A program made the position numbers and the translations under genes. A stretch of DNA of 64,000 bases from contig NZ_CP035108.1 of NCBI RefSeq assembly GCF_004087915.1, positions 2,418,001 through 2,482,000 of the forward strand, given 5' to 3'. The notes beneath the pieces are model-generated. The model worked only from the letters and a program-made list of their open reading frames with translations, was not told where the DNA came from and searched no databases. Source of the DNA: Geovibrio thiophilus (GTDB lineage: Bacteria > Chrysiogenota > Deferribacteres > Deferribacterales > Geovibrionaceae). The first letter of the stretch is position 1. Each line of letters opens with the position of its first letter. Below are positions 22,187 to 64,000 of this stretch, one piece after another.

Positions 22187-22672
22187 TCAGTTGGAAAATC
22201 TGTAGTCCAAGGGTTTTATCTCGCCGATATAGGTCTGCACGCCATATCCGGCTTCTAGCCAGCCGACTATTCCGCCTTTCATGTTTACGGCGTTTCTGTA
22301 GCCGAGCTCATTGAGCAGATGTGTGGCGAAAGCTCCTCTGGCGCCGGTCTTGCAGTAGACCACAATTTTATCATCAGAGTTAAGCTGACCGCCTGCGACC
22401 CACTCAAGAAGCCCTCTTGGGATTTTTTTAAGAGTTCCGACGGCGATAACCATCCCCTGTTCCTCAGGCTCCCTTATGTCAAGCATAATAAATGCTTCAC
22501 CTTTGGCGCTCATTTCAGCCACCTCGGCGGGGGAAACCTCTTTGATTGATTTTCTCGCCTCAGCGAGCTTCGCCTCACGGGTTTTGACCAGATTCTCAGG
22601 AGCCGAAGCATGGGCGGTGACGCTCAGGAGCATTGCCGTGAGCGCAGCGGCGACAATTAAAATCCTGTTCAT
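22187..22672 (-). CDS. exported rhodanese-like sulfurtransferase
   Basis: The 161-residue protein has a signal peptide (MNRILIVAAALTAMLLSVTAHASA) and one rhodanese domain. The active loop is VVYCKTGARGAF with Cys107 as persulfide-bearing nucleophile and the usual CxxGxR spacing. LDIREPEEQGMV and NMKGGIVGWLEAG are family blocks. The ATG at 22672 is chosen because GGAGG precedes it and it opens on the signal peptide. A periplasmic rhodanese beside a Psr/Phs-type reductase would fit carrying sulfane sulfur to or from that enzyme; this is inferred from context. Confidence 0.9.
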   Translation of the reverse strand: MNRILIVAAALTAMLLSVTAHASAPENLVKTREAKLAEARKSIKEVSPAEVAEMSAKGEAFIMLDIREPEEQGMVIAVGTLKKIPRGLLEWVAGGQLNSDDKIVVYCKTGARGAFATHLLNELGYRNAVNMKGGIVGWLEAGYGVQTYIGEIKPLDYRFSN

Positions 22673-22972
22673 ACGGTACCTCCAAATAAACATATGTAAA
22701 GTATAAACAGTGTGACACGGAGGCGTCAAGCGAAGTGTGATATTTTTATCACTCATACTGATAAGAAACTGATGAGCCGGATAAAAAAAGGACGGATAAA
22801 AAATCAGAAAATTAAAATGAGATTATTGCGCTTTGCATTGATGAAGCCCTGAAAACAGCGGCTTGAGTCTGCCAATTGAATTTATATGAAGTCAGGGTGT
22901 TCTTTCAGTGTATGAATAGCGGAAGTGCTATAGAAAAAAGAAATACCTTAAACAGCAAAACCTAAATAATCA
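22673..22972. other. spacer between ArsR and rhodanese genes
   Basis: 300 bp of AT-rich noncoding DNA upstream of the rhodanese gene and downstream of the ArsR gene. Apart from GATGAGCCGG/GATAAAAAA-like low-complexity text nothing recognisable was found. Confidence 0.4.
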
Positions 22973-23287
22973 CTAAGCTTTAGAATTTTCAATCAGCTTG
23001 TCGTGCTCGATGCACCCAAGCAAACTGCTTTTGATGTGACCGGTCTGAAGCACAAAAAGTGTTTTTCTTCCTTCTTTGTAAGCTTTCAGCAGTCCTGCAT
23101 CCTTCATCAGATTAACATGCTTTGTAATATTGGTTCTTTCGCAGTCGAAGGCTTCTTCGATCTCGTATCCGTAGCGGGGTCTCTCGCAAACCATTCTGGC
23201 TATGAGCAGACGCACAGGGCTTGCAAGCGCTTTGAATATTTCGAGAACATCGTCCAATTCTTTGTCGTTAAGATCTCTTAATGCCAT
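22973..23287 (-). CDS. ArsR-family winged-helix regulator, possibly thiol-based
   Basis: The 104-residue protein has the ArsR/SmtB pattern: LKALASPVRLLIARMV, then the recognition helix region ERTNITKHVNLMKDAGLLKAYKEGRKTLFVL. It holds Cys34 in the helix after the SPVRL motif, Cys49 in the recognition region and Cys92 near the C-terminus. Cys34 and Cys92 sit roughly where the two cysteines of BigR/SqrR-type persulfide sensors lie, so a reactive-sulfur sensing role is possible. No clear ribosome site is seen; 23287 is preferred to 23326 because the latter would place an operator-like dyad within the coding region. It is divergent from psrA. Confidence 0.8.
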   Translation of the reverse strand: MALRDLNDKELDDVLEIFKALASPVRLLIARMVCERPRYGYEIEEAFDCERTNITKHVNLMKDAGLLKAYKEGRKTLFVLQTGHIKSSLLGCIEHDKLIENSKA

Positions 23288-23294
23288 ATTATTT

Positions 23295-23313
23295 CTATAT
23301 GTTATATATATAG
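23295..23313. promoter_or_regulatory. AT-rich dyad at ArsR promoter
   Basis: CTATAT and ATATAG are inverted around a 7-base GTTATAT spacer, directly upstream of the preferred ArsR start. Its position suits autorepression by the ArsR protein. Confidence 0.4.
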
Positions 23314-23352
23314 GATAGTCAATCATTTTGTCATGTTTAAAAATATAAGATT

Positions 23353-23373
23353 AATTGATAGACATGTTCAATT
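23353..23373. promoter_or_regulatory. inverted repeat AATTGA-N9-TCAATT
   Basis: AATTGA at 23353-23358 and TCAATT at 23368-23373 are separated by 9 bases in the arsR-psrA divergent region, upstream of the predicted psrA promoter. It is a second candidate operator for the ArsR protein or another regulator. Confidence 0.35.
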
Positions 23374-23417
23374 TTAGTTATTATACGCCGTAATCGTGAT
23401 TAAATTGTCACTTTTTA

Positions 23418-23446
23418 TTGACACTTTTTTCTCACGGAACTAATCT
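23418..23446 (+). promoter_or_regulatory. candidate sigma-70 promoter for psrA
   Basis: TTGACA at 23418-23423 matches the -35 consensus fully. TAATCT at 23441-23446 is a weak -10 at exact 17-bp spacing. The start codon is about 68 bases downstream of the -10. Confidence 0.4.
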
Positions 23447-23513
23447 ACCTTTAATGTTTATTTAAAGTTCAAACATGCGTTAATTCGCATATAATCTTCA
23501 AACGAGGGAATCC

Positions 23514-25718
23514 ATGACAAAATGCAGAATCTCCCGAAGACGTTTTATTCAGGGAACGGCCTCAGTGGGCGCAGCATTGGCGTCCATGTCATCTTTCCGT
23601 CTGCTCACAGGCAGCTCACCCGCCTCTGCGGAACCGCAGCAGGGAGTAACATACGCTCAGAACTGGTGCGAAATGTGCTTCTGGAAATGCGGGCTTACTG
23701 CAAAAGTTGTCGACGGAAAAGTGAAAAAACTCGAAGGACAGCCTGACTGCCCCAGCAACTACGGCAAACTTTGCGCAAAAGGAAATGCAGGCGTATTCCA
23801 GCTTTATGATCCGGACAGACTCAAGACTCCTCTCATAAGAGACGGCGAAAGAGGCTCCGGCAAATTCAGAAAAGCGACATGGGAAGAAGCGCTCACATAT
23901 GTTGCGCAGAAAACAAACGAACTGAAAGAGAAATACGGTCCGGAAACCTTCAGCATCTTTGCTCACGGTTCGGGCGAACACTCTTTTGTTGAGCTTGTTG
24001 AAATCATAGGCTCACCGAACTACTGCATACCTTCCTACGCTCAGTGTACGGGCAGCCGTGACATAGGCTGGGCGCTTTCGTACGGAAAAGCCGTAGGCGG
24101 CAAAGAACCCGTGGACTCCCAGAACTCCAAGTGCATCATGCTTCTGGGCAGAAACATTGTCGAGGCGCTCCATGTGGGCGAAATGCAGGATTTCGTGGAA
24201 GGCGTGGCAAAAGGCGCGCACGTAATCTATGTTGATCCCCGCTTCACAAAGACAGCGGCAAAGGCAAACCAGTACATGATGATTAAACCCGGGACAGATT
24301 CAGCTCTGCTTCTCGGCATGATTAACTACATAATAGAAAAAGAGATCTACAACAAAAACTTTGTAGACGGCTACACCCACGGCTTTGACCTGTTTAAGGA
24401 GCATGTGGCGGAATACACGGTTGAGTGGGCATCACAGATAACTGAAATCCCTCAGACGGAAATAATAAAAGCCGCTGAAAAACTCTGTGAGGCAGCTCCC
24501 CACTGCTATATTCACCCGGGCAGAAGGCTCACCAGATACGGCAACGACACCCAGTTCACAAGGATAGTGGCATGCCTTAACATGCTCATGGGCAACTGGG
24601 AAGTGCGCGGCGGAATTTACCGCACAGTCGGTTTCAAATATGACGCGCCGCACATGGTTCACTTTGACAAACCCTATGCGGACAGGGCGGACGGCGCCGG
24701 TTCCGAAGAGTTCCCTCTCGGACCGAAAAACCTCGGTTTCGCCAATAAACTCATGGAGCATATAGCCAATCAGGATGTCTATCCCCTTAAGGGCATGTTT
24801 GTATACGGCTGTAACCCGCTTCACCACCACGGCAGTACGGAAATGGTGAAAAAGGCTCTGGAGAACACTGAGCTTCTTGTCACATGTGAAATTTATATGA
24901 CAGATACAGCGTGGCTTTCAGATGTTATCCTTCCAGAATCCACATACCTTGAGCGTTATGACCCCGTAATAAGTACCGGACGCAGAAAAGGCTACATCCA
25001 GTTCAGAGAGCCCGCCGTAAATCCCGTATTCGATACTAAAGGCGGATGGGAAATAGCAGCACAGCTTTCTGCCGCCATGGGACACGAAAACGAGTTCCTT
25101 GACGTGAGGGAGTACAACAGACTGGCTTTTGAGGCACTCGGCATCACAGAAGAATACATGAAGAAGCACGGAGTCTGGGTGGCAAATGAGAGCACACCCT
25201 ATCCTGTTGAAGACGGAGAGGAAGAGCCCTCCTTCAGAACTCCTTCGGGAAAAGCCGAATTCTACAGTAACCTGTGCGAGCATTTTTCCTACCCGCCGAT
25301 GCCTTCATACGAAGAAAACCCCGTTCCGGCGGAAGACGAGTTCAGGTTCCTTTTCGGCAGACTGAGCTTCCACACCCACGCACGCACTCAGAACAACGCA
25401 TGGCTTCTCGCACTCCATAAATCCGAAGTGCCCCTGTGGATACACACGGATAGAGCGAAAGCACTGGGGATTAAAGACGGAATGCAGGTGCGCCTAGTGA
25501 AGGAAGGCTTCAAGAGCAACCCCTGTACGGCAAGGGTTGTGGACTACATCCATCCTCAGGCGGTGTTCCTCCCCTACGGCTTCGGTCATGAAACCAAGGG
25601 GCTCACGCGGATCACAGGGAAAGGAGCCAGAACCTCCGACTTCACTTCAAACCTCACAGACCCCATAAGCGGCGCCGCAGGCTTTCACAACGGCTTCGTG
25701 AAACTTGAAATCGCTTAG
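23514..25718 (+). CDS. psrA: molybdopterin oxidoreductase, polysulfide/thiosulfate reductase-type catalytic subunit
   Basis: This 734-residue protein has a Tat signal (ISRRRFIQGTASVGAALASM) and a [4Fe-4S] motif with Cys52, Cys55, Cys59 and Cys87. It then follows the DMSO-reductase family fold with two bis-MGD binding regions. PSYAQCTGSRDIG places Cys178 where PsrA/PhsA enzymes use cysteine as the molybdenum ligand, separating it from serine- (DMSO) and selenocysteine-type enzymes. With the following FeS and NrfD subunits it forms a PsrABC/PhsABC-type periplasmic reductase of polysulfide, thiosulfate or a related sulfur compound. Sequence alone cannot fix the substrate; other Cys-ligated oxyanion reductases are possible. 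Confidence 0.88.
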   Translation: MTKCRISRRRFIQGTASVGAALASMSSFRLLTGSSPASAEPQQGVTYAQNWCEMCFWKCGLTAKVVDGKVKKLEGQPDCPSNYGKLCAKGNAGVFQLYDPDRLKTPLIRDGERGSGKFRKATWEEALTYVAQKTNELKEKYGPETFSIFAHGSGEHSFVELVEIIGSPNYCIPSYAQCTGSRDIGWALSYGKAVGGKEPVDSQNSKCIMLLGRNIVEALHVGEMQDFVEGVAKGAHVIYVDPRFTKTAAKANQYMMIKPGTDSALLLGMINYIIEKEIYNKNFVDGYTHGFDLFKEHVAEYTVEWASQITEIPQTEIIKAAEKLCEAAPHCYIHPGRRLTRYGNDTQFTRIVACLNMLMGNWEVRGGIYRTVGFKYDAPHMVHFDKPYADRADGAGSEEFPLGPKNLGFANKLMEHIANQDVYPLKGMFVYGCNPLHHHGSTEMVKKALENTELLVTCEIYMTDTAWLSDVILPESTYLERYDPVISTGRRKGYIQFREPAVNPVFDTKGGWEIAAQLSAAMGHENEFLDVREYNRLAFEALGITEEYMKKHGVWVANESTPYPVEDGEEEPSFRTPSGKAEFYSNLCEHFSYPPMPSYEENPVPAEDEFRFLFGRLSFHTHARTQNNAWLLALHKSEVPLWIHTDRAKALGIKDGMQVRLVKEGFKSNPCTARVVDYIHPQAVFLPYGFGHETKGLTRITGKGARTSDFTSNLTDPISGAAGFHNGFVKLEIA

Positions 25719-25731
25719 GGAGGCAGAAAAT

Positions 25732-26310
25732 ATGTACTCAGCAGATAAAACAAAAAAATTCGCAATGGCTTACATAGTGGACAGATGCGTGGACTGTAAA
25801 GCCTGCATGGTGGCATGCAAGGCGGAATGGCAGATTCCGGACAATGATTTCCGTACGCATATAGACACCGGCATAGCCCCCGCCGCAACGGAAAGACTCA
25901 GCATGCACTTTCTGCCCCATCAGTGCAACCACTGTGACGACGCTCCCTGCGTTACGGTCTGCCCCACAAAGGCAAGCCACAAAAGGGCGGACGGCGTTGT
26001 GGACATCGACAACCGCAAGTGTGTGGGCTGCCGCTACTGCATCCCCTCCTGCCCGTACAACGCAAGGTTCTTTAACAATCAGCTTGGCGTAGCGGACAAA
26101 TGCACCTTCTGCCTTCCAAGGATTTATGACGGTCTCATGCCCGCGTGCGTGACCACATGTCCCGGCAGGGCAAGGGTTTTCGGCGATATAAACGATCCTG
26201 AAAGCGAAATCTCCAAGGCTCTCAAAGACGCCGCCGACAACAGGTACAGGGTCTGGACGCTCCGTAAGGACTTGGGCACTGAGCCGAATATTTATTACAT
26301 CCAGAAGTAG
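25732..26310 (+). CDS. psrB: iron-sulfur electron transfer subunit of Psr/Phs-type reductase
   Basis: The 192-residue protein has four complete cysteine clusters for four [4Fe-4S] centres: CVDCKACMVAC, CNHCDDAPCVTVC, CVGCRYCIPSC and CTFCLPRIYDG...ACVTTC. No signal peptide is present, so it is exported bound to the Tat-carrying PsrA. The ATG at 25732 is chosen over an upstream in-frame start at 25705 because AGGGAGG lies immediately before it and it does not overlap psrA. It carries electrons from the PsrC quinol site to the molybdenum subunit. Confidence 0.93.
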   Translation: MYSADKTKKFAMAYIVDRCVDCKACMVACKAEWQIPDNDFRTHIDTGIAPAATERLSMHFLPHQCNHCDDAPCVTVCPTKASHKRADGVVDIDNRKCVGCRYCIPSCPYNARFFNNQLGVADKCTFCLPRIYDGLMPACVTTCPGRARVFGDINDPESEISKALKDAADNRYRVWTLRKDLGTEPNIYYIQK

Positions 26311-26319
26311 GAGGACAAA

Positions 26320-27255
26320 ATGGAATTTCAGACAGGTTTCCATTGGTACATAGCGGTCTATCTGTTCCTCGCGGGTGTGGGCGCCGGCTCCATTGTTGTG
26401 GCGTCCCTTGCGGACATGTACGACAGACAGAAATATTTATCATTCATAAAAGCGGCAAGCGTGATAGGCATGCCCCTTGTATCCATAGGTATATTCTTCC
26501 TCTACATCGACCTCGGTCAGGGGATGTACAAGCCGTGGCTTCTCCTGCTGCTGTTTGTCAACACTACCTCCGCGATCATGTGGGGTACGCTTATACTTAC
26601 TATCTTCACAATACTTTCGCTCCTTTACGGTGCTTACAACCTCGGCATACTAGACTGGTTCATCAAGAAAGCTGGATTTCTGAAAATCTTCAAACCCCTT
26701 GCCGCAAGCGGCTTCATGAACTGGGCGCTGATCATCACCGGCATACTCACGGCGGGCTATACAGCGGTTCTCCTCGGTGTTCTGAAGGCTATCCCCTTCT
26801 GGCATCAGACTGCGCTGCCGATCCTTTTCATAATCTCCGCCTCGTCCACAGGGATTTCAGGCGCTATGGTGGTAAAGGAGCTCTTTTTTAAAGAGGAGGC
26901 TCATCTGGCGAAAATCGAAACCACGCATTTCTACCTGATAATGCTTGAGATACTGCTGCTCATAGGCATGCTTCTCATAGCCCTTCAGGGCGTGCCTGAG
27001 ATGAAGTTCTCTGCCCTTGCCCTCCTCACCGGAGAGTTCGCGGTTGAGTTTTGGGTGTTCCTTGTGCTGCTCGGTCTCGTGGTTCCCGCCGTGGTGTTCG
27101 CTTTTGTTGAGGCGGGCAAGCTCCATGTGAGCGGCGGCAAGCTGGTTTTCTTTGAGCTGCTTGTTCTCGCCGGCGGATACTTCCTGCGTCATCTTATTCT
27201 CCACGCAGGTGTTTACACTCAGAAATTTACAGACTATATTATGATTCATTACTAA
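26320..27255 (+). CDS. psrC: NrfD/PsrC-type membrane quinol oxidoreductase subunit
   Basis: The 311-residue membrane protein has about eight hydrophobic helices. FHWYIAVYLFLAGVGAGSIV is the characteristic NrfD/PsrC N-terminal helix. It binds (mena)quinol and hands electrons to PsrB. Ten bases and a strong GTAGGAGG site separate it from psrB, so psrABC is one operon. A hairpin with a T-tract follows it before the Rieske gene. Confidence 0.93.
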   Translation: MEFQTGFHWYIAVYLFLAGVGAGSIVVASLADMYDRQKYLSFIKAASVIGMPLVSIGIFFLYIDLGQGMYKPWLLLLLFVNTTSAIMWGTLILTIFTILSLLYGAYNLGILDWFIKKAGFLKIFKPLAASGFMNWALIITGILTAGYTAVLLGVLKAIPFWHQTALPILFIISASSTGISGAMVVKELFFKEEAHLAKIETTHFYLIMLEILLLIGMLLIALQGVPEMKFSALALLTGEFAVEFWVFLVLLGLVVPAVVFAFVEAGKLHVSGGKLVFFELLVLAGGYFLRHLILHAGVYTQKFTDYIMIHY

Positions 27256-27262
27256 ATCAGAC

Positions 27263-27304
27263 AGCCGCGGGCGGGCAAACCCCGTCTGCGGCATCACTTT
27301 TTTT
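27263..27304 (+). terminator. terminator/attenuator between psrC and Rieske gene
   Basis: GCCGCGGGCGGG and CCCGTCTGCGGC form a GC-rich stem (27263-27292), followed by ATCAC and seven Ts. Only 62 bp separate psrC and the next gene, so partial readthrough into the Rieske/cytochrome b genes is likely. Confidence 0.75.
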
Positions 27305-27317
27305 CGGGACTGTTTGA

Positions 27318-27734
27318 ATGACAGAACAAAAAAACATCTCCAGAAGGGGATTTTTAGGTCGGCTGGCAGGACTTGCCGCTTCCGCCTTTTCCCTCTGGTT
27401 TATTTACAGATTCCTTACCCCCGAAAGCTCGGGCGGCGAAATACTGATTCAGGCACAGGAAGCGGACGTTCCTGAAGGCGGAGCCGTTATCTTTCCCGAT
27501 AAAAACACAGCCGTAATGCGGATGGACGGCGAAATAACCGCCATGTCGCTCGTGTGCACCCATCTGGGCTGTACAATAGCCCTCGACGGAGACAGGTTCG
27601 CCTGCCCTTGCCATGGAAGCATATTCGCCCTCGACGGCACAGTTGTTCAGGGTCCCGCCGAACGCAGGCTCGATACATACAGAACAGAAATAAGGGATGG
27701 ACAGATAACCGTTTACAGACAGGTGAACGCGTGA
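27318..27734 (+). CDS. Rieske [2Fe-2S] protein
   Basis: The 138-residue protein begins with a Tat-like signal anchor (ISRRGFLGRLAGLAASAFSLWFIYRF). The cluster-binding loops are CTHLGC and CPCHG, giving the two Cys and two His ligands and the pair of structural cysteines of bc/b6f-type Rieske proteins. It is shorter than mitochondrial Rieske proteins and matches menaquinol-oxidising anaerobe types. The stop codon overlaps the GTG start of the cytochrome b gene (GTGA), so the two are translationally coupled. Confidence 0.93.
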   Translation: MTEQKNISRRGFLGRLAGLAASAFSLWFIYRFLTPESSGGEILIQAQEADVPEGGAVIFPDKNTAVMRMDGEITAMSLVCTHLGCTIALDGDRFACPCHGSIFALDGTVVQGPAERRLDTYRTEIRDGQITVYRQVNA

Positions 27735-28756
27735 TTAAGCGTTATCTTATTCATCTTTATCCTAAAACATTCAGCAGGGCTGCGGTAAACGGAACTCTCC
27801 TTATGGGCGGGCTGATAACCGCTCTCTTCCTCAGCCTGTGCGTAACGGGAGTTCTGCTGCTTTTCTACTATTCACCCGAAGCATCGTCCGCATACTCATC
27901 CATCATTTACCTTGAGGAGAAGGTGTTCGGCGGACGCTTCATCCGTGCCCTGCATCTCTGGAGCTCACACATACTTCTCATAACCATCGCACTGCATATG
28001 GTGAGAACAATATTTACGGGCACATACACAGTCAGGGCATCCAACTGGAAGCTGGGCTATATTCTCTTCGGTCTCATGGTGTTTGAAGCGTATACCGGAG
28101 TTCTGCTCCCAATGGATCAGCTCTCATACTGGGCTACTAAAACCGGAATGGAGCTGGTGAATATTCTCCCCTTCGGTGAGTACATACGCAAGCTGCTCAC
28201 ACCGGATGATGTCGGCGGCAGGCTGACGCTTATAAGATTTTTCGCCATGCACATAGCGCTTATTCCGCTTGTGTGCGTGTTTCTCATATCCGCCCACCTG
28301 TACAATGTCCGCAGGGACGGCGGTCTGCACCCTAAATCAGACACGGCAAAGACCAAAAGCGACCCGTTCCTCTTTAATCTCACATGGTTCATAGCGGCTG
28401 CGGCAGTCACAGTCCCCGCTGTGCTGGCAGTTGTCTCAGGGGCTCCCCTTGAGGAGCCGGCAGATCCGGCTCTGCCACCGAACCCTGCGAAAAGCGCATG
28501 GTTCCTGCTGTGGATTCAGGAGATAGTAAGCTGGAAGGCGTGGCTGTTCAACCCTTTTGCGGTGCTGTTCGTACTCTATTTCTTTCTGCCTGATTTCCGC
28601 AGAAAATATCAGCCGGAAACCTCAGAATGGTTTTCTAAAAACGATGCTTCCGTCTGGGGGCTGACACTGTTTCTATGCGCTGCCGTCCTTGTGCTTACGG
28701 CTGTGGCAATGTTTTTCAGAGGTGAGAATTGGTCGCTCGTGCCCTTTTACTTCTGA
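27731..28756 (+). CDS. cytochrome b of a bc/b6f-type complex
   Basis: The 341-residue membrane protein begins with GTG at 27731, overlapping the Rieske stop, with AGGTGA just upstream; a longer frame back to 27554 is only the Rieske gene read in another frame. Helix B carries HLWSSHILLITIALH (haem His pair 14 apart) and helix D carries HIALIPLVCVFLISAH (15 apart, the b6-type spacing). The C-terminal part has NPAKSAWFLLWIQEI, the subunit-IV-like segment, so cytochrome b6 and part of subunit IV are fused. I do not see a PEWY Qo motif. It should oxidise menaquinol together with the Rieske protein. Confidence 0.92.
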   Translation: MIKRYLIHLYPKTFSRAAVNGTLLMGGLITALFLSLCVTGVLLLFYYSPEASSAYSSIIYLEEKVFGGRFIRALHLWSSHILLITIALHMVRTIFTGTYTVRASNWKLGYILFGLMVFEAYTGVLLPMDQLSYWATKTGMELVNILPFGEYIRKLLTPDDVGGRLTLIRFFAMHIALIPLVCVFLISAHLYNVRRDGGLHPKSDTAKTKSDPFLFNLTWFIAAAAVTVPAVLAVVSGAPLEEPADPALPPNPAKSAWFLLWIQEIVSWKAWLFNPFAVLFVLYFFLPDFRRKYQPETSEWFSKNDASVWGLTLFLCAAVLVLTAVAMFFRGENWSLVPFYF

Positions 28757-29502
28757 TTTTTATCACGCTCCCCTTCTTTCCGTCCTTTGCGTCGATGTGC
28801 GTGAAGTGCCACAAGCCCCATTATGAAAAAACTGGCTCGTGCGCCGTCTGCCACAGGGGCAATGAGGATACAGCCCGCAAAAACATAGCCCACGGCGGAC
28901 TGATAACGAAAAAGTACGCCGACTTCATCATAAACGGGAAAGCCGTTGAAAACGGAAGCAAAACCGCAGACAGCGCCCATTGCAGAAGATGCCACATCAC
29001 AGAGGGCAGGGGGAACGATGTCGCCCCTAATCTGGATACGGAAAGCAGGCGCAAAACCGCCGAAACACTCAAGGAAAAACTGATAAAGCCGACCGATTAC
29101 ATGCCCGATTTTCATATGAACGATCCGACAGCGGAAAATACGGTGAAATATATCCTCAATGCGGGAGGCTCCGCGAAAAGCGTTTCCAGAACAGCGCCAT
29201 ATGTGGTTTTCATCACTCAGGGAAAGAAAAGCGTTTTCGAGGAGAAATGCGGCGGCTGCCACAGGCTGCTCACCCGTAAAAGAGGCGGAACAGGTCACGG
29301 AGACACAGCGCCGAATCTGTCCGGACTGTTCAGCGGGTTTTATCCCGCTGATACAGTAAAGGCGGAAGGAAACCGCTGGAACGGAGAAATACTGGTGAAA
29401 TGGATTAAGAACCCGCGCAGGATAAAGAAAGAGGCGCTCATGCCGCCCGTCCTCCTCACTGAGGAGGAGGAGAAAAGCATAACGGCGGAGTTCGCAAACT
29501 GA
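28729..29502 (+). CDS. exported tetraheme c-type cytochrome
   Basis: The 257-residue protein has a signal peptide (MVARALLLLIFITLPFFPSFA) and four CxxCH haem sites: CVKCH and CAVCH at the mature N-terminus, CRRCH in the middle and CGGCH in the C-terminal half. Translation probably starts at TTG 28729 after AGGTGA, overlapping cytochrome b by 28 bp. The position replaces cytochrome c1 in a Rieske/cytochrome b operon, so it should take electrons from the Rieske protein. It combines a short two-haem N-terminal segment with two class-I-like halves. Its acceptor is unknown. Confidence 0.9.
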   Translation: MVARALLLLIFITLPFFPSFASMCVKCHKPHYEKTGSCAVCHRGNEDTARKNIAHGGLITKKYADFIINGKAVENGSKTADSAHCRRCHITEGRGNDVAPNLDTESRRKTAETLKEKLIKPTDYMPDFHMNDPTAENTVKYILNAGGSAKSVSRTAPYVVFITQGKKSVFEEKCGGCHRLLTRKRGGTGHGDTAPNLSGLFSGFYPADTVKAEGNRWNGEILVKWIKNPRRIKKEALMPPVLLTEEEEKSITAEFAN

Positions 29503-30795: not shown

Positions 30796-30838
30796 TTGAC
30801 TTTCTTTACTCATACGCTATATACATTTATACATAACG
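30796..30838 (+). promoter_or_regulatory. modA promoter with ModE-type operator
   Basis: TTGACT (30796-30801) and TATATA (30818-30823) form a -35/-10 pair with 16-bp spacing. Overlapping the -10 is CGCTATATA-N6-TACATAACG at 30815-30838. The right half is identical to that of the E. coli modA operator and the total length (24 bp) is the same. Molybdate-loaded ModE would block the promoter. No modE gene is in the window. Confidence 0.75.
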
Positions 30839-30858
30839 ACTTCAAAGAGGTAGAGCTT

Positions 30859-31608
30859 ATGAGAATACTCCTGATAGCAATGTGCTTACTTATCAGTGTT
30901 TCAGCCTTCGCCAAGGATGTCACGGTCTTCGGTGCGGCTTCAGTAACAAACGCTATGAACGAAATTATCGCAACCTACAAAAAAGAAAAAGGCGTTAACG
31001 TTATAGCGTCCTATGCTTCCTCCGGTCCCCTTGCGAAGCAGATCGAAAACGGCGCTCCCGCCGACATTTTCGTGTCTGCAAACATGAGCTGGATGGATTA
31101 TCTTATTGAAAAAGGCAAAATAGAGGAAGGAACAAACATACCCTACCTCGCCAATAAGCTCGCTTTTATCGCTCCTGTTTCATCTCCTACAGGTAAAATA
31201 GCAAACCTTGACGGCGCCGCGGTGAAAAAACTCATCGGCAGCGGAAAGTTCGCAATGGGCGACCCTGAGCATGTCCCCGCAGGCAAATACACTCAGAAAG
31301 CTCTTGAAGGCTGGGGAATCTGGAAGGATATTGAATCTCAGGCAGCGAGAATGCAGGACGTAAGAGCCACACTCGCCATGGTTGAACGTGCAGTTCCTTA
31401 CGGCTTTGTCTACTTCTCTGACTCAGCGATCAGCGACAAGGTGAAAGTCATTTCCCTTGTGGACGATTCTCTCACAGGGAAAATCATATACCCCATGGGA
31501 ATAGTTAAAGGCAAACGCACTCCCGAGACAGAAGCGTTTTACAATTTCCTCAAAACAGACTATGCTGCGGAAGTTTTCCTGAAATACGGATTTATCGCGG
31601 TGAAATAA
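30859..31608 (+). CDS. modA: molybdate-binding protein of ABC transporter
   Basis: The 249-residue periplasmic protein has a signal peptide (MRILLIAMCLLISVSAFA) and the ModA fold: VFGAASVTNAMNEI at the mature N-terminus, YASSGPLAKQIENGAPADIFVSA and DPEHVPAGKYT. The ATG at 30859 is preferred over the upstream frame since it follows AGAGGT and opens on the signal peptide. It delivers molybdate (and probably tungstate) to ModBC. It is first in modABC and is predicted to be ModE-repressed. Supply of molybdenum is consistent with the two molybdoenzymes in this window. Confidence 0.95.
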   Translation: MRILLIAMCLLISVSAFAKDVTVFGAASVTNAMNEIIATYKKEKGVNVIASYASSGPLAKQIENGAPADIFVSANMSWMDYLIEKGKIEEGTNIPYLANKLAFIAPVSSPTGKIANLDGAAVKKLIGSGKFAMGDPEHVPAGKYTQKALEGWGIWKDIESQAARMQDVRATLAMVERAVPYGFVYFSDSAISDKVKVISLVDDSLTGKIIYPMGIVKGKRTPETEAFYNFLKTDYAAEVFLKYGFIAVK

Positions 31609-31610
31609 AA

Positions 31611-32315
31611 ATGTTTAACCTCTCGCCGATAGAGATTGAGGCGATTTATCTCAGTATGAAAATTTCTTTCTGGGCGGTACTCGTCGGTCTGATCCCCGGC
31701 GTTGCCGCCGCTTATCTGCTCGCCCGCAAAAACTTCCCCGGCAAACTCCTGCTGGACGGGCTGATACACGTTCCGCTGGTTATACCTCCGGTGGTAACTG
31801 GCTACATTCTCCTCATAACCTTTAACGACAACGCGCCAATGGGTAAGCTGCTTATAAGCATCTTCGGTTCGGGCATAGCCTTTTCATGGAAGGGCGCCGT
31901 GGTTGCCTCTGTTGTTATGTCCATGCCTCTTCTGGTGCGCAGTGTGCGCCTTTCCATAGAGAGCATAGACAGAGGGCTTGAGGAGGCAGCAAAAACCCTC
32001 GGCGCTAAAAGATGGCGGGTTTTCCTCACGGTCACCCTTCCCCTTTCGGTTCCCGGGATAATAACCGGAACAGTGCTCGCCTTCGCCAGAAGCCTCGGCG
32101 AGTTCGGAGCGACTATCACTTTCGTCTCCAACATTCCGGGCGAAACAAGGACACTCCCCGTTGCGCTGTATAACCTTACCCAGACCCCGGGCACTGAGGC
32201 GGCTGCGCTGAGGCTCTGTCTTATCTCAATCGGGCTTTCCATCGCCGCGATAGCCGCGTCCGAATACCTCTCCAGAAGAGCGGCTCTCAGGCTGAGGGGA
32301 GCGGTTAATGCTTGA
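31611..32315 (+). CDS. modB: molybdate ABC transporter permease
   Basis: The 234-residue protein has about five membrane helices and the permease EAA-type loop EEAAKTLGAKRWRVFLTVTLP followed by RSLGEFGATITF, the ModB signature. It starts two bases after modA and overlaps modC by 8 bp. Confidence 0.96.
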   Translation: MFNLSPIEIEAIYLSMKISFWAVLVGLIPGVAAAYLLARKNFPGKLLLDGLIHVPLVIPPVVTGYILLITFNDNAPMGKLLISIFGSGIAFSWKGAVVASVVMSMPLLVRSVRLSIESIDRGLEEAAKTLGAKRWRVFLTVTLPLSVPGIITGTVLAFARSLGEFGATITFVSNIPGETRTLPVALYNLTQTPGTEAAALRLCLISIGLSIAAIAASEYLSRRAALRLRGAVNA

Positions 32316-33390
32316 ATTCAGCGCCATAAAGCGCTATCCGGCATTTACGCTGGATGTCAGCTTCAAAATGAACGAAGGTATGGTCACGGGGCTTTTCGGA
32401 CGCTCAGGCTCCGGTAAAACAAGCATAATCAACATTGCCGCCGGTCTCATAAACCCCGACGAAGGTTATGTGTCGCTGGACGGCAAAGTCCTCTACGACA
32501 GCAGCAACAAAATAAATCTCCCCGCTCCGGCGCGCAGCTCAGGCTATATCTTTCAGGACGGCAGGCTTTTCCCTCATATGACAGTGGAAGCCAATCTCCG
32601 CTACGGCATGAAGAGAAGCATGCGCAACGGGCATAAAGCAGGCTTTGACGATGTTGTGGAGCTTCTGGGAATAGGCGATCTGCTGAAACGCAGACCGCAC
32701 AGGCTCTCCGGCGGAGAAAAGCAGAGGGTGGCTATAGGGCGCGCCCTTCTCTCGTCACCGGATTTCCTTCTGATGGACGAGCCTCTTTCCGCTCTGGATT
32801 CTCACCGCAAAGAGGAGCTTATCCCCTTCATAGGGAAGATGGTGCAGACTTTTAAGCTTCCAGTGCTTTATGTAACCCACTCGATAGATGAGCTTTTCAG
32901 CCTCTGCGACAACGTAGTGCTGATGAAAGACGGCAGATGCACCGACTTCGGAACTGTGGAGGAGGCTGTATCCCGCCCGGCAAACAGAGAAATACTCGGT
33001 CTCAGCGGAAGAGTCAGCGTTCTCAGGGCTTCGGCTGTTTCGGAGAAAGAGCCTTCAATCATCACATTTGAAAACGGCAGACTCGGCATCCCCACATCGA
33101 AATACGCAACAGGCACGGAGCTTCGCGTCGCTGTTCACTCGGACGACGTAACCCTCGCGCTGAACAAGCCCACGGGCTTAAGCGCCAGAAACATAATGAA
33201 AGGCATGATAACCGCCGTGGACAGCAGCGATGACGGCGCAGTTGCCGTAACTGTGGATGTGGGAGTTCCCGTTTACGCCACTATAACACGCTCAGCGGCA
33301 TCGGAACTCGGCATAAGAACGGGAACAGAGGTCTATATAATAATGAAAACCATCGCCCTCTCAAGGCTCAGCGTGCCTTTTATACATTAA
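32308..33390 (+). CDS. modC: molybdate ABC transporter ATP-binding protein
   Basis: The 360-residue protein has Walker A GRSGSGKTS, signature LSGGEKQRVAIGRALL, Walker B FLLMDEPLSALD and the H-loop VTHSIDE. The C-terminal region from about residue 285 is a TOBE/Mop domain (SARNIMKGMITAV) that binds oxyanion and regulates transport. The length is normal for ModC. Confidence 0.96.
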   Translation: MLEFSAIKRYPAFTLDVSFKMNEGMVTGLFGRSGSGKTSIINIAAGLINPDEGYVSLDGKVLYDSSNKINLPAPARSSGYIFQDGRLFPHMTVEANLRYGMKRSMRNGHKAGFDDVVELLGIGDLLKRRPHRLSGGEKQRVAIGRALLSSPDFLLMDEPLSALDSHRKEELIPFIGKMVQTFKLPVLYVTHSIDELFSLCDNVVLMKDGRCTDFGTVEEAVSRPANREILGLSGRVSVLRASAVSEKEPSIITFENGRLGIPTSKYATGTELRVAVHSDDVTLALNKPTGLSARNIMKGMITAVDSSDDGAVAVTVDVGVPVYATITRSAASELGIRTGTEVYIIMKTIALSRLSVPFIH

Positions 33391-61770: not shown

Positions 61771-64000
61771 CTATCCTTTTCTTATATTGATTCGAGTGTC
61801 GGCACCTAAAGTCATACCCTGACATATTCTCGAAGGACGAAGTTTTGTGAGAACATTGATAGCTCCTCCTATATCAGGTTTACCGTCAGCATTATCACCA
61901 TTAGCCCAGCCGCCTTGTCCCATTGCAGGCCAGCCTGCTCTTACTCTCTGAGTCACAACTGCAGTTGCATATATACTGCCTCTCGGACTTTCAACAATTA
62001 CTCTATCACCGGTAAGAATACCTTCAGCAACAGCATCTGCCGGATTAATCCATATCGGTTCATAAACATTATTGTCCCAAACTTCTCCAAGCTCACGTTC
62101 AGGATCCAGATACGCACTGTTACCGTCAGCGTCTTTTTTGAAAACTTCATTGATGTAGGCATTGTTAGAGTGTGTAGAGTGAGAACGGTAATAGATGTGC
62201 CATCCATTAAGGCAATATGGATAATTAGTTTTGTAACCTTGTGGATCTGCTGCAGAGCCATCTGCAAAAGAACCTTCAAGCATAGGAATAACCATAGGAA
62301 TAGCGTACACAAATTTCCCTGTTGTTTTCCCATCGTGAAGTGGGCCCTCAAGAGTAACTCTTGCATCATCATTATCGTAAAACCTTGCTTCGTAGTCTTC
62401 TACCATAGCCTGAGAATATATTTCAAACTTTCCGGTGGGAGTATAAAGCGCACCAACATGCGGATCCGTTCTGTAGGCGGCAAGCGGATCAGTTATCCCG
62501 TATGACGAATCCATATGGAAAAGACCTTTCTCCTTCCATTCATCATAAGTCATTCCTGCGTTGTAAGCTGTAAGCAGAGGTTCAATGGCTTCTTTTCTCC
62601 AGTCATCAACAGTTTTGCCTTCGGTGTATTCGCTGAGAACACCCAGTTTATCCGCAATCTTCGCGACAATGTCATAATCAGGCAATGCTTCACCGAGAGG
62701 TTCCACTGCTTTATTCATACATATTAGTGCATCGCCGGCAAGCCAGCCTGAGCAGGCACCTTCTTTCTCAAAAGCAGTAGCAGCAGGAAGAACATAATCT
62801 GAAAATTTTGCTGATGCTGTCATAAACTGGTCAGCAGTTACAATTAACTCTACATTATTTCTGTCTTTAATAATCCCAGAAACCGTATTGTAGTCACCAC
62901 ATTGATTAACAAGGCAATTTCCGCCAAAATTGAGTATAGCCTTCATTGGAGTGGGAAAGTTTTTAACCTGTCCATCATTCCACATTGATTTCCCAGTTCC
63001 ACCGTATTTGGCTATATCCGGCCAGAGAAATACAGGATAGGACGATCTGGTTACAGCAGGAGTATAGTCAGGAGCTGTGAGCTTGCTTAAATCATATATA
63101 CCTGTAAAATCCGCATATGCGTTATTTGTTCCGGTAGGGAATGTAACACCGAAAGATAACGGCTGCCTGTCGGTGTACACTCCGACATGCCTTCCGGGTT
63201 CGCCAAAGTTTTTGGTTATGACTCCAAGAGTATAACCATTCAGGGGTAATTGTTCACCTTCAGACTGCCTCTGAAAACCACCGCCAAACCAGAGTGTTAC
63301 TTTCTTTTTTGCAAAAATTTCAGCAAGCTCTCTTATTTTAGCTGCCGGTATACCGCATATAGATTCAGCCCACTCAGGAGTTTTGGCAACTTTTCCGTAT
63401 ACTGAAACAAGTGCATCCTTAAGATTATCATTCGGATCATCGGCATTGTAGTTGTTGTAGCCTATCTGTGACGGGTAAACAGATACATCTCCGTTAAGCC
63501 CTGCCTGAACAAGCCTGTCGTCAGTACCCATTATATAAGCACTGAGGGAAGAACCGTCGGGAACAATATAATCTGTGCTCCTGTCCACATCAGCGTGGTA
63601 TGTTTTGGCTATTGCAGGATACAGCGTAAAAGCCTCATCATCGAAAAATCCGTGAGTATATCTGAGAATGAACTCAGCATCCAGCCAAGGATCTGCTTTC
63701 AATGAACCGTCGGTGTTCCATGTATTTACTATGAGTTCGTGCATAATAGCCTGTACCAAGGCAGCATCCGTTCCGGGAACAACTGCTATGTGTTCACTGG
63801 CATGGGATACAACAGTTTGAGAAACTCGCCCGTCAATAACAAAGACCTTTGTGCCTTTTTCTTTAATCTGCTGTATATACCATGCAGTATTTGTTCCCCA
63901 AATGCTTTCCGCGAAGTTTCCGCTCCAAATGAACAGTGCATCAGAGTTAAAAGCGTCCTGTCTGGATTTTCCCGGAGGAAAATAAAAATTCTGTCCGAAA
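61771..64000 (-). CDS. DMSO-reductase-family molybdopterin oxidoreductase, N-terminus outside window
   Basis: The frame is open to the window edge, so about 743 C-terminal residues are seen and the Tat signal, FeS motif and Mo ligand region lie beyond it. Visible family blocks are ALFIWSGNFAESIWG, VVPGTDAALVQAIMHELI, LNFGGNCLVNQCGDY, YVLPAATAFEKEGAC and the C-terminal MGD-binding region WINPADAVAEGILTGDRV. It lies 13 bp before the DmsB-like gene. This suits a DmsA-like reductase of S- or N-oxides or an oxyanion; substrate unknown. The gene is AT-richer than the hyb and psr operons. Confidence 0.88.
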   Translation of the reverse strand, partial: FGQNFYFPPGKSRQDAFNSDALFIWSGNFAESIWGTNTAWYIQQIKEKGTKVFVIDGRVSQTVVSHASEHIAVVPGTDAALVQAIMHELIVNTWNTDGSLKADPWLDAEFILRYTHGFFDDEAFTLYPAIAKTYHADVDRSTDYIVPDGSSLSAYIMGTDDRLVQAGLNGDVSVYPSQIGYNNYNADDPNDNLKDALVSVYGKVAKTPEWAESICGIPAAKIRELAEIFAKKKVTLWFGGGFQRQSEGEQLPLNGYTLGVITKNFGEPGRHVGVYTDRQPLSFGVTFPTGTNNAYADFTGIYDLSKLTAPDYTPAVTRSSYPVFLWPDIAKYGGTGKSMWNDGQVKNFPTPMKAILNFGGNCLVNQCGDYNTVSGIIKDRNNVELIVTADQFMTASAKFSDYVLPAATAFEKEGACSGWLAGDALICMNKAVEPLGEALPDYDIVAKIADKLGVLSEYTEGKTVDDWRKEAIEPLLTAYNAGMTYDEWKEKGLFHMDSSYGITDPLAAYRTDPHVGALYTPTGKFEIYSQAMVEDYEARFYDNDDARVTLEGPLHDGKTTGKFVYAIPMVIPMLEGSFADGSAADPQGYKTNYPYCLNGWHIYYRSHSTHSNNAYINEVFKKDADGNSAYLDPERELGEVWDNNVYEPIWINPADAVAEGILTGDRVIVESPRGSIYATAVVTQRVRAGWPAMGQGGWANGDNADGKPDIGGAINVLTKLRPSRICQGMTLGADTRINIRKG

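Follow-up and report, generated by a model that had tools for sequence, protein, structure and literature searches.

A Psr-type molybdoenzyme adjoins an ExtOPQS bc-type module in Geovibrio thiophilus, suggesting one exported-chalcogen redox system

In Geovibrio thiophilus, the genes of a Psr-type molybdoenzyme (psrABC) directly precede a Rieske/cytochrome b/tetrahaem cytochrome trio that, judged by profile matches and gene order, is the ExtO-ExtPQ-ExtS module of the Geobacter ext (selenite/tellurite) cluster. We suggest, at about even odds, that psrABC and extOPQS together make up the inner-membrane half of an Ext system in which the Psr-type enzyme takes the catalytic slot, the two parts being separable units of expression. 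The best reading of the data is a single exported-chalcogen redox system joined to menaquinone by two arms; the kit is widespread among bacteria and apparently serves to process sulfur- or selenium-type compounds on the surface of the cell. A polysulfide reductase and a selenite/tellurite or metal-reduction conduit, hitherto annotated apart, would thus be joined as one system in three phyla; in the literature searched, we found no description of the pairing as one system. The one-system view would account for PsrABC adjoining a bc-type complex.

The locus lies in a window of 64,000 nucleotides (NZ_CP035108.1, positions 2,418,001 to 2,482,000), to which the coordinates in Table 1 refer. psrA, psrB and psrC are followed, after a gap of 62 bp, by the Rieske, cytochrome b and tetrahaem cytochrome genes; the cytochrome b start overlaps the Rieske stop by 4 bp and extS overlaps the cytochrome b gene by 28 bp. 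The arrangement given in a preliminary description (six genes on one strand, a 62-bp gap, overlaps within the second trio) was thus seen again in the sequence.

Table 1. Features of the psr-ext locus and its upstream neighbours (window coordinates).
Feature	Coordinates	Strand	Details
Exported rhodanese	22187..22756	-	PF00581 46.6 bits; active-site loop CKTGAR
ArsR-type regulator	22973..23326	-	divergent from psrA; HTH_metalloreg 51.2 of 55 bits
psrA, Mo-bisPGD catalytic subunit of ext-linked Psr clade	23514..25718	+	734 aa
psrB, four-cluster Fe-S subunit	25732..26310	+	ATG start; 16 Cys; Fer4_11 101.5 bits
psrC, NrfD-type membrane anchor	26320..27255	+	PF03916 124.9 bits
Terminator- or attenuator-like hairpin and T-run	27264..27292	+	12 pairs (10 G-C); folding z-score -4.8
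extO, Rieske protein	27318..27734	+	PF00355 53.1 bits; CTHLGC at residue 80, CPCHGS at 96
extPQ, cytochrome b, ExtP and ExtQ in one chain	27731..28756	+	GTG start; ExtP 177 of 290 bits, ExtQ 114 of 150 bits (both below curated cut-offs)
extS, tetrahaem cytochrome c	28729..29502	+	TTG start; NF040971 263.8 bits, cut-off 100

Assignment of the second trio to the Ext family follows from the ExtS match, which clears its curated cut-off, and from coverage of the cytochrome b by the ExtP and ExtQ models, which are the best models and come in the fitting order at scores below their own cut-offs. Comparison with relatives makes the grouping of the Rieske protein and cytochrome b with ExtO, ExtP and ExtQ clear. 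Features of bc1/b6f complexes are present, namely the Rieske ligands and the four haem-b histidines, all kept in ExtPQ. A canonical cytochrome bc1/b6f complex was ruled out, as the ExtS family replaces c1/f and SAWF replaces PEWY at the quinol site (AAWF or SGWF in single relatives). The four haem motifs of ExtS (residues 24, 38, 85 and 174) are invariant in 23 relatives; beyond them the protein gives only weak class-I cytochrome c matches and a predicted fold of mean pLDDT 65. A tetrahaem cytochrome in the c1 position had been called unusual at the outset, a view that falls away with the finding that ExtS is the regular partner in the ExtOPQS module. Searches of the genome found no second bc complex: the other Rieske match, at 1.924 Mb, lacks an adjacent cytochrome b match, and PF13631 has a single match. 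ExtP is also the sole bc-type cytochrome b in our sample of the phylum, which raises the question of what the Deferribacterota use their only bc complex for.

The first trio has the make-up of a Psr/Phs/Srr complex, with a Tat-exported Mo-bisPGD subunit carrying a Cys ligand, a four-cluster B subunit and a membrane anchor. PsrA bears the Tat motif SRRRF and the Mo-bisPGD domains, and its Cys178 aligns with the Cys in the 'SLCTAPRE' stretch of Thermus PsrA (2vpw). It is related to the thiosulfate reductase PhsA and is not filed there, scoring below the PhsA equivalog cut-off (463.7 of 694 bits). In the PsrA tree, the PsrAs linked to ext genes group together; an unlinked psr set is also present besides the ext-linked one.

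The rest of the Ext system is encoded in the same genome. extH-I-J-M-N lie about 0.53 Mb from the psr-extOPQS locus, with ExtI at 510.6 bits (cut-off 150), ExtM at 928.3 bits (cut-off 800), ExtJ and ExtN also present, and a frameshift in extH. The Ext unit is wider than the six genes, as it includes a porin, rhodaneses and two multihaem cytochromes; its genes occupy two separate sites in this genus and are contiguous in the family's other genera. No ExtK-like gene (for the five-haem ExtKL) was found at the two ext places of the genome, where psrABC is present instead. Unexpectedly, a Gly-Cys pair closes the C-terminus of exported Ext proteins (22 of 22 cases for ExtJ), a sequence feature which suggests that these ends may serve as thiol carrier arms. 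The predicted fold of ExtJ (pLDDT 63), with an unstructured tail, is too weak to use.

Conservation of the gene order in relatives had been set beforehand as a test, and the order held: it occurs in all 11 ExtS-bearing genomes of the family, either exactly or with extM-extN inserted. The proposed linkage of the molybdoenzyme to the bc-type module is borne out by this recurrence. Because the link is also found in other families and other phyla, the gene order is beyond chance. In most relatives extH-I-J-M-N adjoins psrABC, and psrABC and the ext core occur together in three bacterial phyla. All genomes with the linked PsrA clade have ExtS, both within the phylum (15/15) and in the Desulfuromonadia (39/39, usually no more than 30 kb away). 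Where copies of this clade share a contig with ext, 27 of 28 lie within 30 kb of it; more distant PsrA copies, belonging to paralogous psr sets, are never close to ext. The partner beside one ext core is swapped among psrABC, extKL and another molybdoenzyme. Rhodaneses and YeeE/YedE transporters adjoin psr in other phyla, and in Bacteroidota several of the rhodaneses carry a Gly-Cys C-terminal tail.

Upstream of psrA, the signal peptide of the rhodanese points to a start near residue 29. An exported rhodanese also adjoins psr in one relative (G021), with a partial match in another (G020), and the protein is likely to be an accessory to the system. The ArsR-type regulator belongs to a set of five family members adjoining psrA in which three cysteines are kept. 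This pattern is suggestive of a BigR/SqrR persulfide sensor, but the BigR model gives 25.6 of 155 bits and the solved structures closest to the regulator belong to other ArsR proteins, including several metal sensors, so that it is no more than a possible sensor of this kind.

The gap between psrC and the Rieske gene holds a strong, G-C-rich hairpin followed by a T-run, and hairpins occur in the equivalent gap of seven relatives. Because of this terminator-like element, simple co-transcription of psrABC and extOPQS appears doubtful, and the two halves may be expressed as separable units. Of the earlier proposal that both halves share the quinone pool under one control, the pool stands as their natural meeting point, while the hairpin speaks against one simple transcript.

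Based on these results, we propose that ExtO/ExtPQ carries out a bc-type oxidation of menaquinol, and that the electrons would travel through ExtS and on to the multihaem cytochromes ExtN and ExtM, in the direction of ExtI, the porin of the outer membrane. PsrABC would trade electrons with the same menaquinone pool via PsrC and convert a periplasmic zero-valent or sulfane chalcogen, such as polysulfide or protein persulfide and perhaps selenium, which the rhodaneses (ExtH and the one encoded near psrA) and the Gly-Cys-tailed ExtH and ExtJ might deliver or remove. We tentatively favour a reductive net direction, at slightly under even odds: the bc arm would supply the step of higher potential, whether extracellular or on an oxyanion, and Psr would carry out the final, low-potential reduction to hydrogen chalcogenide. 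In Geobacter sulfurreducens, loss of extI, the one ext gene with a known role of this kind, hampers the reduction of both selenite and tellurite (PMC5877670). It is also possible, albeit rather less probable, that ext-psr acts as an exported sulfur/selenium relay, in which the invariant Gly-Cys tails of ExtJ, ExtH and several Bacteroidota rhodaneses are thiol arms that shuttle zero-valent chalcogen between PsrABC and sulfur outside the cell, through the periplasm and the outer membrane, while ExtOPQS, ExtN and ExtM balance the electrons. The proposed system has to contend with the observation that its presence does not track the ability of cultured strains to reduce S0 (PMC6896113, Table 2; strains matched to genomes by inference). 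The literature covered yielded no experiment on an ext cluster linked to psr. Its two quinol-oxidising arms would, moreover, be energetically independent of each other.

Menaquinone has a higher potential than the sulfide/polysulfide couple, and a bc complex in turn depends on acceptors of higher potential than menaquinone. This favours a Psr running in reverse, with PsrABC oxidising sulfide or protein persulfide to yield menaquinol, ExtOPQS re-oxidising the menaquinol via ExtS, ExtN and ExtM at the expense of an acceptor outside the cell, for example Fe(III), and the rhodaneses and ExtI exporting sulfur. The pairing makes most sense if one enzyme forms the menaquinol that the other consumes; a separate, unlinked psr is present for reduction, and ExtI homologues have been reported from the sulfur-oxidising Thioalkalivibrio and Thiohalobacter (PMC5877670). 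However, the sole ext phenotype is reductive (PMC5877670), the Psr/Phs/Srr enzymes characterised so far are reductases (PMC7331816), and two cultured Deferribacterota, one seemingly without a linked psr, were reported not to oxidise sulfide (PMC6896113, PMC11896075), so that we regard the reverse reaction as unlikely, if a serious contender.

Selenite respiration, with PsrABC acting as a respiratory selenite reductase akin to Srr and the ext genes providing uptake and extracellular electron transfer, seems improbable: the ext annotation does stem from selenite/tellurite work and SrrA shares the PsrA/PhsA/SrrA lineage (PMC7331816), but sulfur-type neighbours (rhodaneses, YeeE/YedE) predominate and selenite is scarce in most environments where these bacteria live. 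The one-system view suggests that the selenite/tellurite label of ext may reflect sulfur chemistry of which selenite and tellurite reduction is a side reaction. A chance neighbourhood of two independent respiratory units would fit the terminator-like hairpin and the variable order, with psr replaced by other modules; given the clade-specific linkage in two well-sampled groups and three phyla, and paralogous psr sets never linked to ext, this is very improbable.

Among known systems, extHIJKLMNOPQS of G. sulfurreducens (GSU2940 to GSU2930), whose bc part is apparently the complex elsewhere named CbcMNOPQR, shares with the present system the ExtH-type rhodanese, ExtI porin, ExtJ, ExtM, ExtN, ExtO, ExtPQ, ExtS and the core order. 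In contrast to it, psrABC here replaces or accompanies the five-haem ExtKL, ExtP and ExtQ are fused in one chain, and in the present genus the cluster is divided between two loci. In Deferribacter desulfuricans and Deferrivibrio metallireducens, a porin and a rhodanese adjoining psr/ttr-type genes were proposed as polysulfide porin and carrier (PMC11896075); these are very probably extI and extH beside psr, although that account draws no link to the ext family, a bc-type module or other phyla. Repression of nrfD by nitrate in Deferrivibrio metallireducens may concern a different copy of the gene and was left out of account. The PsrA of Thermus thermophilus PsrABC (2vpw) is the nearest solved relative (508 bits), nested in the ext-linked clade; the Cys ligand position and the NrfD-type anchor family agree, whereas the present PsrC gave no match in a sequence search of solved chains. 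SrrABC of Bacillus selenitireducens, likened here by description rather than sequence, is of the common PsrA/PhsA/SrrA lineage (PMC7331816), but its host is Gram-positive and thus has no porin or outer-membrane conduit. In other pathways, SoxY and DsrC play a thiol-arm role similar to that proposed for the Gly-Cys tails.

The six genes are organized as the preliminary description had them, with slightly corrected start sites, and no domain, cluster ligand or haem motif in them is disrupted. The second trio represents ext genes, known from the extHIJKLMNOPQS cluster of Geobacter sulfurreducens, which encodes a rhodanese, a porin, multihaem cytochromes and bc-like proteins; without extI, that species is impaired in reducing selenite and tellurite (PMC5877670, PMC6148476). 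The tetrahaem cytochrome matches the ExtS model (NCBIfam NF040971; 263.8 bits, cut-off 100), and a single cytochrome b chain is covered by both the ExtP (177 bits) and ExtQ (114 bits) NCBIfam models. The presence of this tetrahaem protein "in the c1 position", initially considered unusual, is therefore not odd, as ExtS is the regular partner in the ext module. The four ExtS haem motifs are the same in all 23 sequences of the alignment, and the protein's similarity is to class-I cytochrome c domains rather than to c1. The cytochrome b resembles b6, retains the four His ligands and bears SAWF in place of the PEWY of bc1; SAWF is kept in the aligned relatives except for one AAWF and one SGWF. The letters of the CbcMNOPQR complex, which includes the ten-haem CbcN and the b-type CbcP (PMC10989804), correspond, and we infer that this complex and the bc-like part of ext are the same. 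As a naming pitfall, NCBIfam NF040968, titled "ExtO iron-sulfur subunit", matches decahaem ExtN (497 bits, locus L069), and the Rieske protein has no match to this model.

Features of the psr–ext region and its surroundings (window coordinates; L080, locus of the window genome holding extH)
Feature	Position	Strand	Remarks
psrA upstream region	23327-23513		GTGA-N8-TCAC palindrome; repeated TTGNCACTTTTT; perfect TTGACA hexamer; all three elements common to three congeners
psrB	start 25732	+	corrected start site
Promoter-like site (candidate)	27212-27240		psrC end; consensus match only
Hairpin between psrC and extO	27264-27292		12 pairs, GC-rich, then T-run; z -4.8
Cytochrome b (extPQ)	start 27731	+	GTGA overlap with Rieske stop
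extS	start 28729	+	TTG, position kept in relatives
modABC molybdate transporter	30796-33390		a little downstream, past MFS gene of Bcr/CflA family; same neighbours in both other species of genus
DMSO/selenate-reductase-type molybdoenzyme (further)	61771-63999	minus	cut by window end; dmsA_ynfE model, 328 bits
Gly-Cys tail, exported ext-psr protein	L080:10342-10560	minus
extH	L080:11838-13158	minus	frameshift at A-run

Across the phylum, ExtS scored above the cut-off in 27 of 51 genomes. The PsrA clade, delimited in this sample at no less than 48% identity, is found in 15 genomes, every one of which has ExtS, with psrA in or near the ext cluster. Moreover, all 26 genomes with a PF13631 bc-type cytochrome b (a single match in 25) have ExtS, and no bc complex other than ExtOPQS occurs in the 51 sampled genomes of the phylum. 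Locus L064 (genome G015), an ext cluster in a genome with neither a PF13631 match nor a linked psr, is apparently a decaying copy. Among the sampled Desulfuromonadia, 92 of 194 have ExtS; 41 PsrA copies with 49% identity or more to the PsrA of locus L041 are found in 39 genomes, again all with ExtS, and 28 of these copies share a contig with ExtS, 27 of them within 30 kb. None of 26 Desulfuromonadia PsrA copies of 40% identity or less is close to ExtS. Hypergeometric P values (5e-6 for the phylum, 1e-15 for Desulfuromonadia) are descriptive only, because species are not independent. A psrABC set is also present in six Bacteroidota- and Chlorobiota-type genomes, in four of which the same contig also carries a Rieske gene, genes of the ExtH or ExtI kind and a fused cytochrome b/eleven-haem gene. 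In the one such locus read from end to end, two YeeE/YedE-type transporters and two rhodaneses come after psrABC. In addition, at least 12 of 20 Desulfuromonadia loci have, near psrA, a gene for a triple rhodanese that bears one haem motif.

In a quick PsrA tree, computed without bootstrap, ext-linked PsrA of three groups join Thermus PsrA in a single clade (SH-aLRT 97), with unlinked paralogues of the same genomes falling outside; the sole Psr that lies next to an ext cluster but is encoded on the other strand (locus L096) groups with unlinked PsrA. On the ExtS tree, the neighbour state (psr, extKL, other Mo enzyme, none) switches no fewer than seven times, and thus the ext core stays constant while the module beside it is exchanged. 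In family f7 of the phylum (L070, L072–L077, L079), ExtOPQS is preceded by a different Mo enzyme (~840 aa), an Fe-S subunit and an FdnI-type cytochrome b, and extM-extN adjoin, in the loci read, a second large Mo enzyme (~1000 aa).

The extH-extI-extJ-extM-extN genes of the window genome lie at about 2.971-2.977 Mb, ~0.53 Mb from psrABC-extOPS, and psrABC-OPS and extHIJMN sit on separate contigs in the two remaining species of the genus. In the family's other genera these parts adjoin one another, so the contiguous cluster is likelier to be ancestral. Two relatives (G018, G027) show the order extH-I-J-M-N-psrABC-O-PQ-S; in G018, an IS256 element separates extN from psrA. Four (G023, G025, G026, G028) share this order from extI onward, and G019 and G020 have psrABC-TPR-M-N-O-PQ-S. 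In other families, the order is H-I-J-psrABC-TPR-O-P-Q-S (G011, G017) or O-PQ-S-M-N...H-I-psrABC (G013). As extH is intact in both congeners, its frameshift in the window genome may be a sequencing artefact or a recently acquired lesion.

The psrC–extO gap holds hairpins in seven relatives; their sequences are similar among congeners but differ in other genera. Such a conserved position with differing sequence points to selection for a putative terminator or attenuator. The psr and ext halves thus appear to be joined in function, but are probably not expressed as one simple transcript.

Beyond the observed parts, psr–ext linkage and module swap, we infer the following electron and chalcogen roles. 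ExtO/PQ would oxidise menaquinol and feed ExtS, ExtN and ExtM, PsrC would connect PsrA to the same menaquinone pool, and chalcogen handling would fall to ExtI and the rhodaneses. Rhodaneses and YeeE/YedE transporters in the neighbourhood point to sulfane sulfur, and the Geobacter phenotype to selenium and tellurium oxyanions. With regard to net direction, we tentatively favour reduction over operation in reverse, which we consider somewhat less likely, because cultured carriers are reducers and the sole ext phenotype is reductive; energetics favour the reverse. Compared with Table 2 of PMC6896113, for which genome names were inferred, presence of the ext-psr cluster does not track S0 reduction, and the cluster is therefore unlikely to be just the S0 reductase.

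All 22 ExtJ sequences have a Gly-Cys terminus, at a mean column identity of only 25%, and 23 of 34 ExtH-like proteins end in Cys, those without it including the f7 proteins and frames that are interrupted or incomplete. Gly-Cys tails were seen on exported ext-psr proteins of many loci, most ExtH among them, and are very rare elsewhere in these loci. A C-terminal Cys is also found in some TPR proteins and in Bacteroidota rhodaneses adjoining psr; it terminates 22 of the 1107 remaining ORFs in these loci. Of these 22, the 17 with a Gly-Cys end are all in Bacteroidota clusters, and those examined are rhodaneses. By analogy to SoxY and DsrC, for which carrier arms are known, the tails suggest a mobile terminal thiol that may serve as a carrier arm; a function in sorting or cross-linking is also conceivable.

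In a search of the openly accessible literature, we found no paper joining psr to ext or to the bc module. A porin and a rhodanese adjoining psr-type genes have already been noted and tied to polysulfide uptake (PMC11896075).
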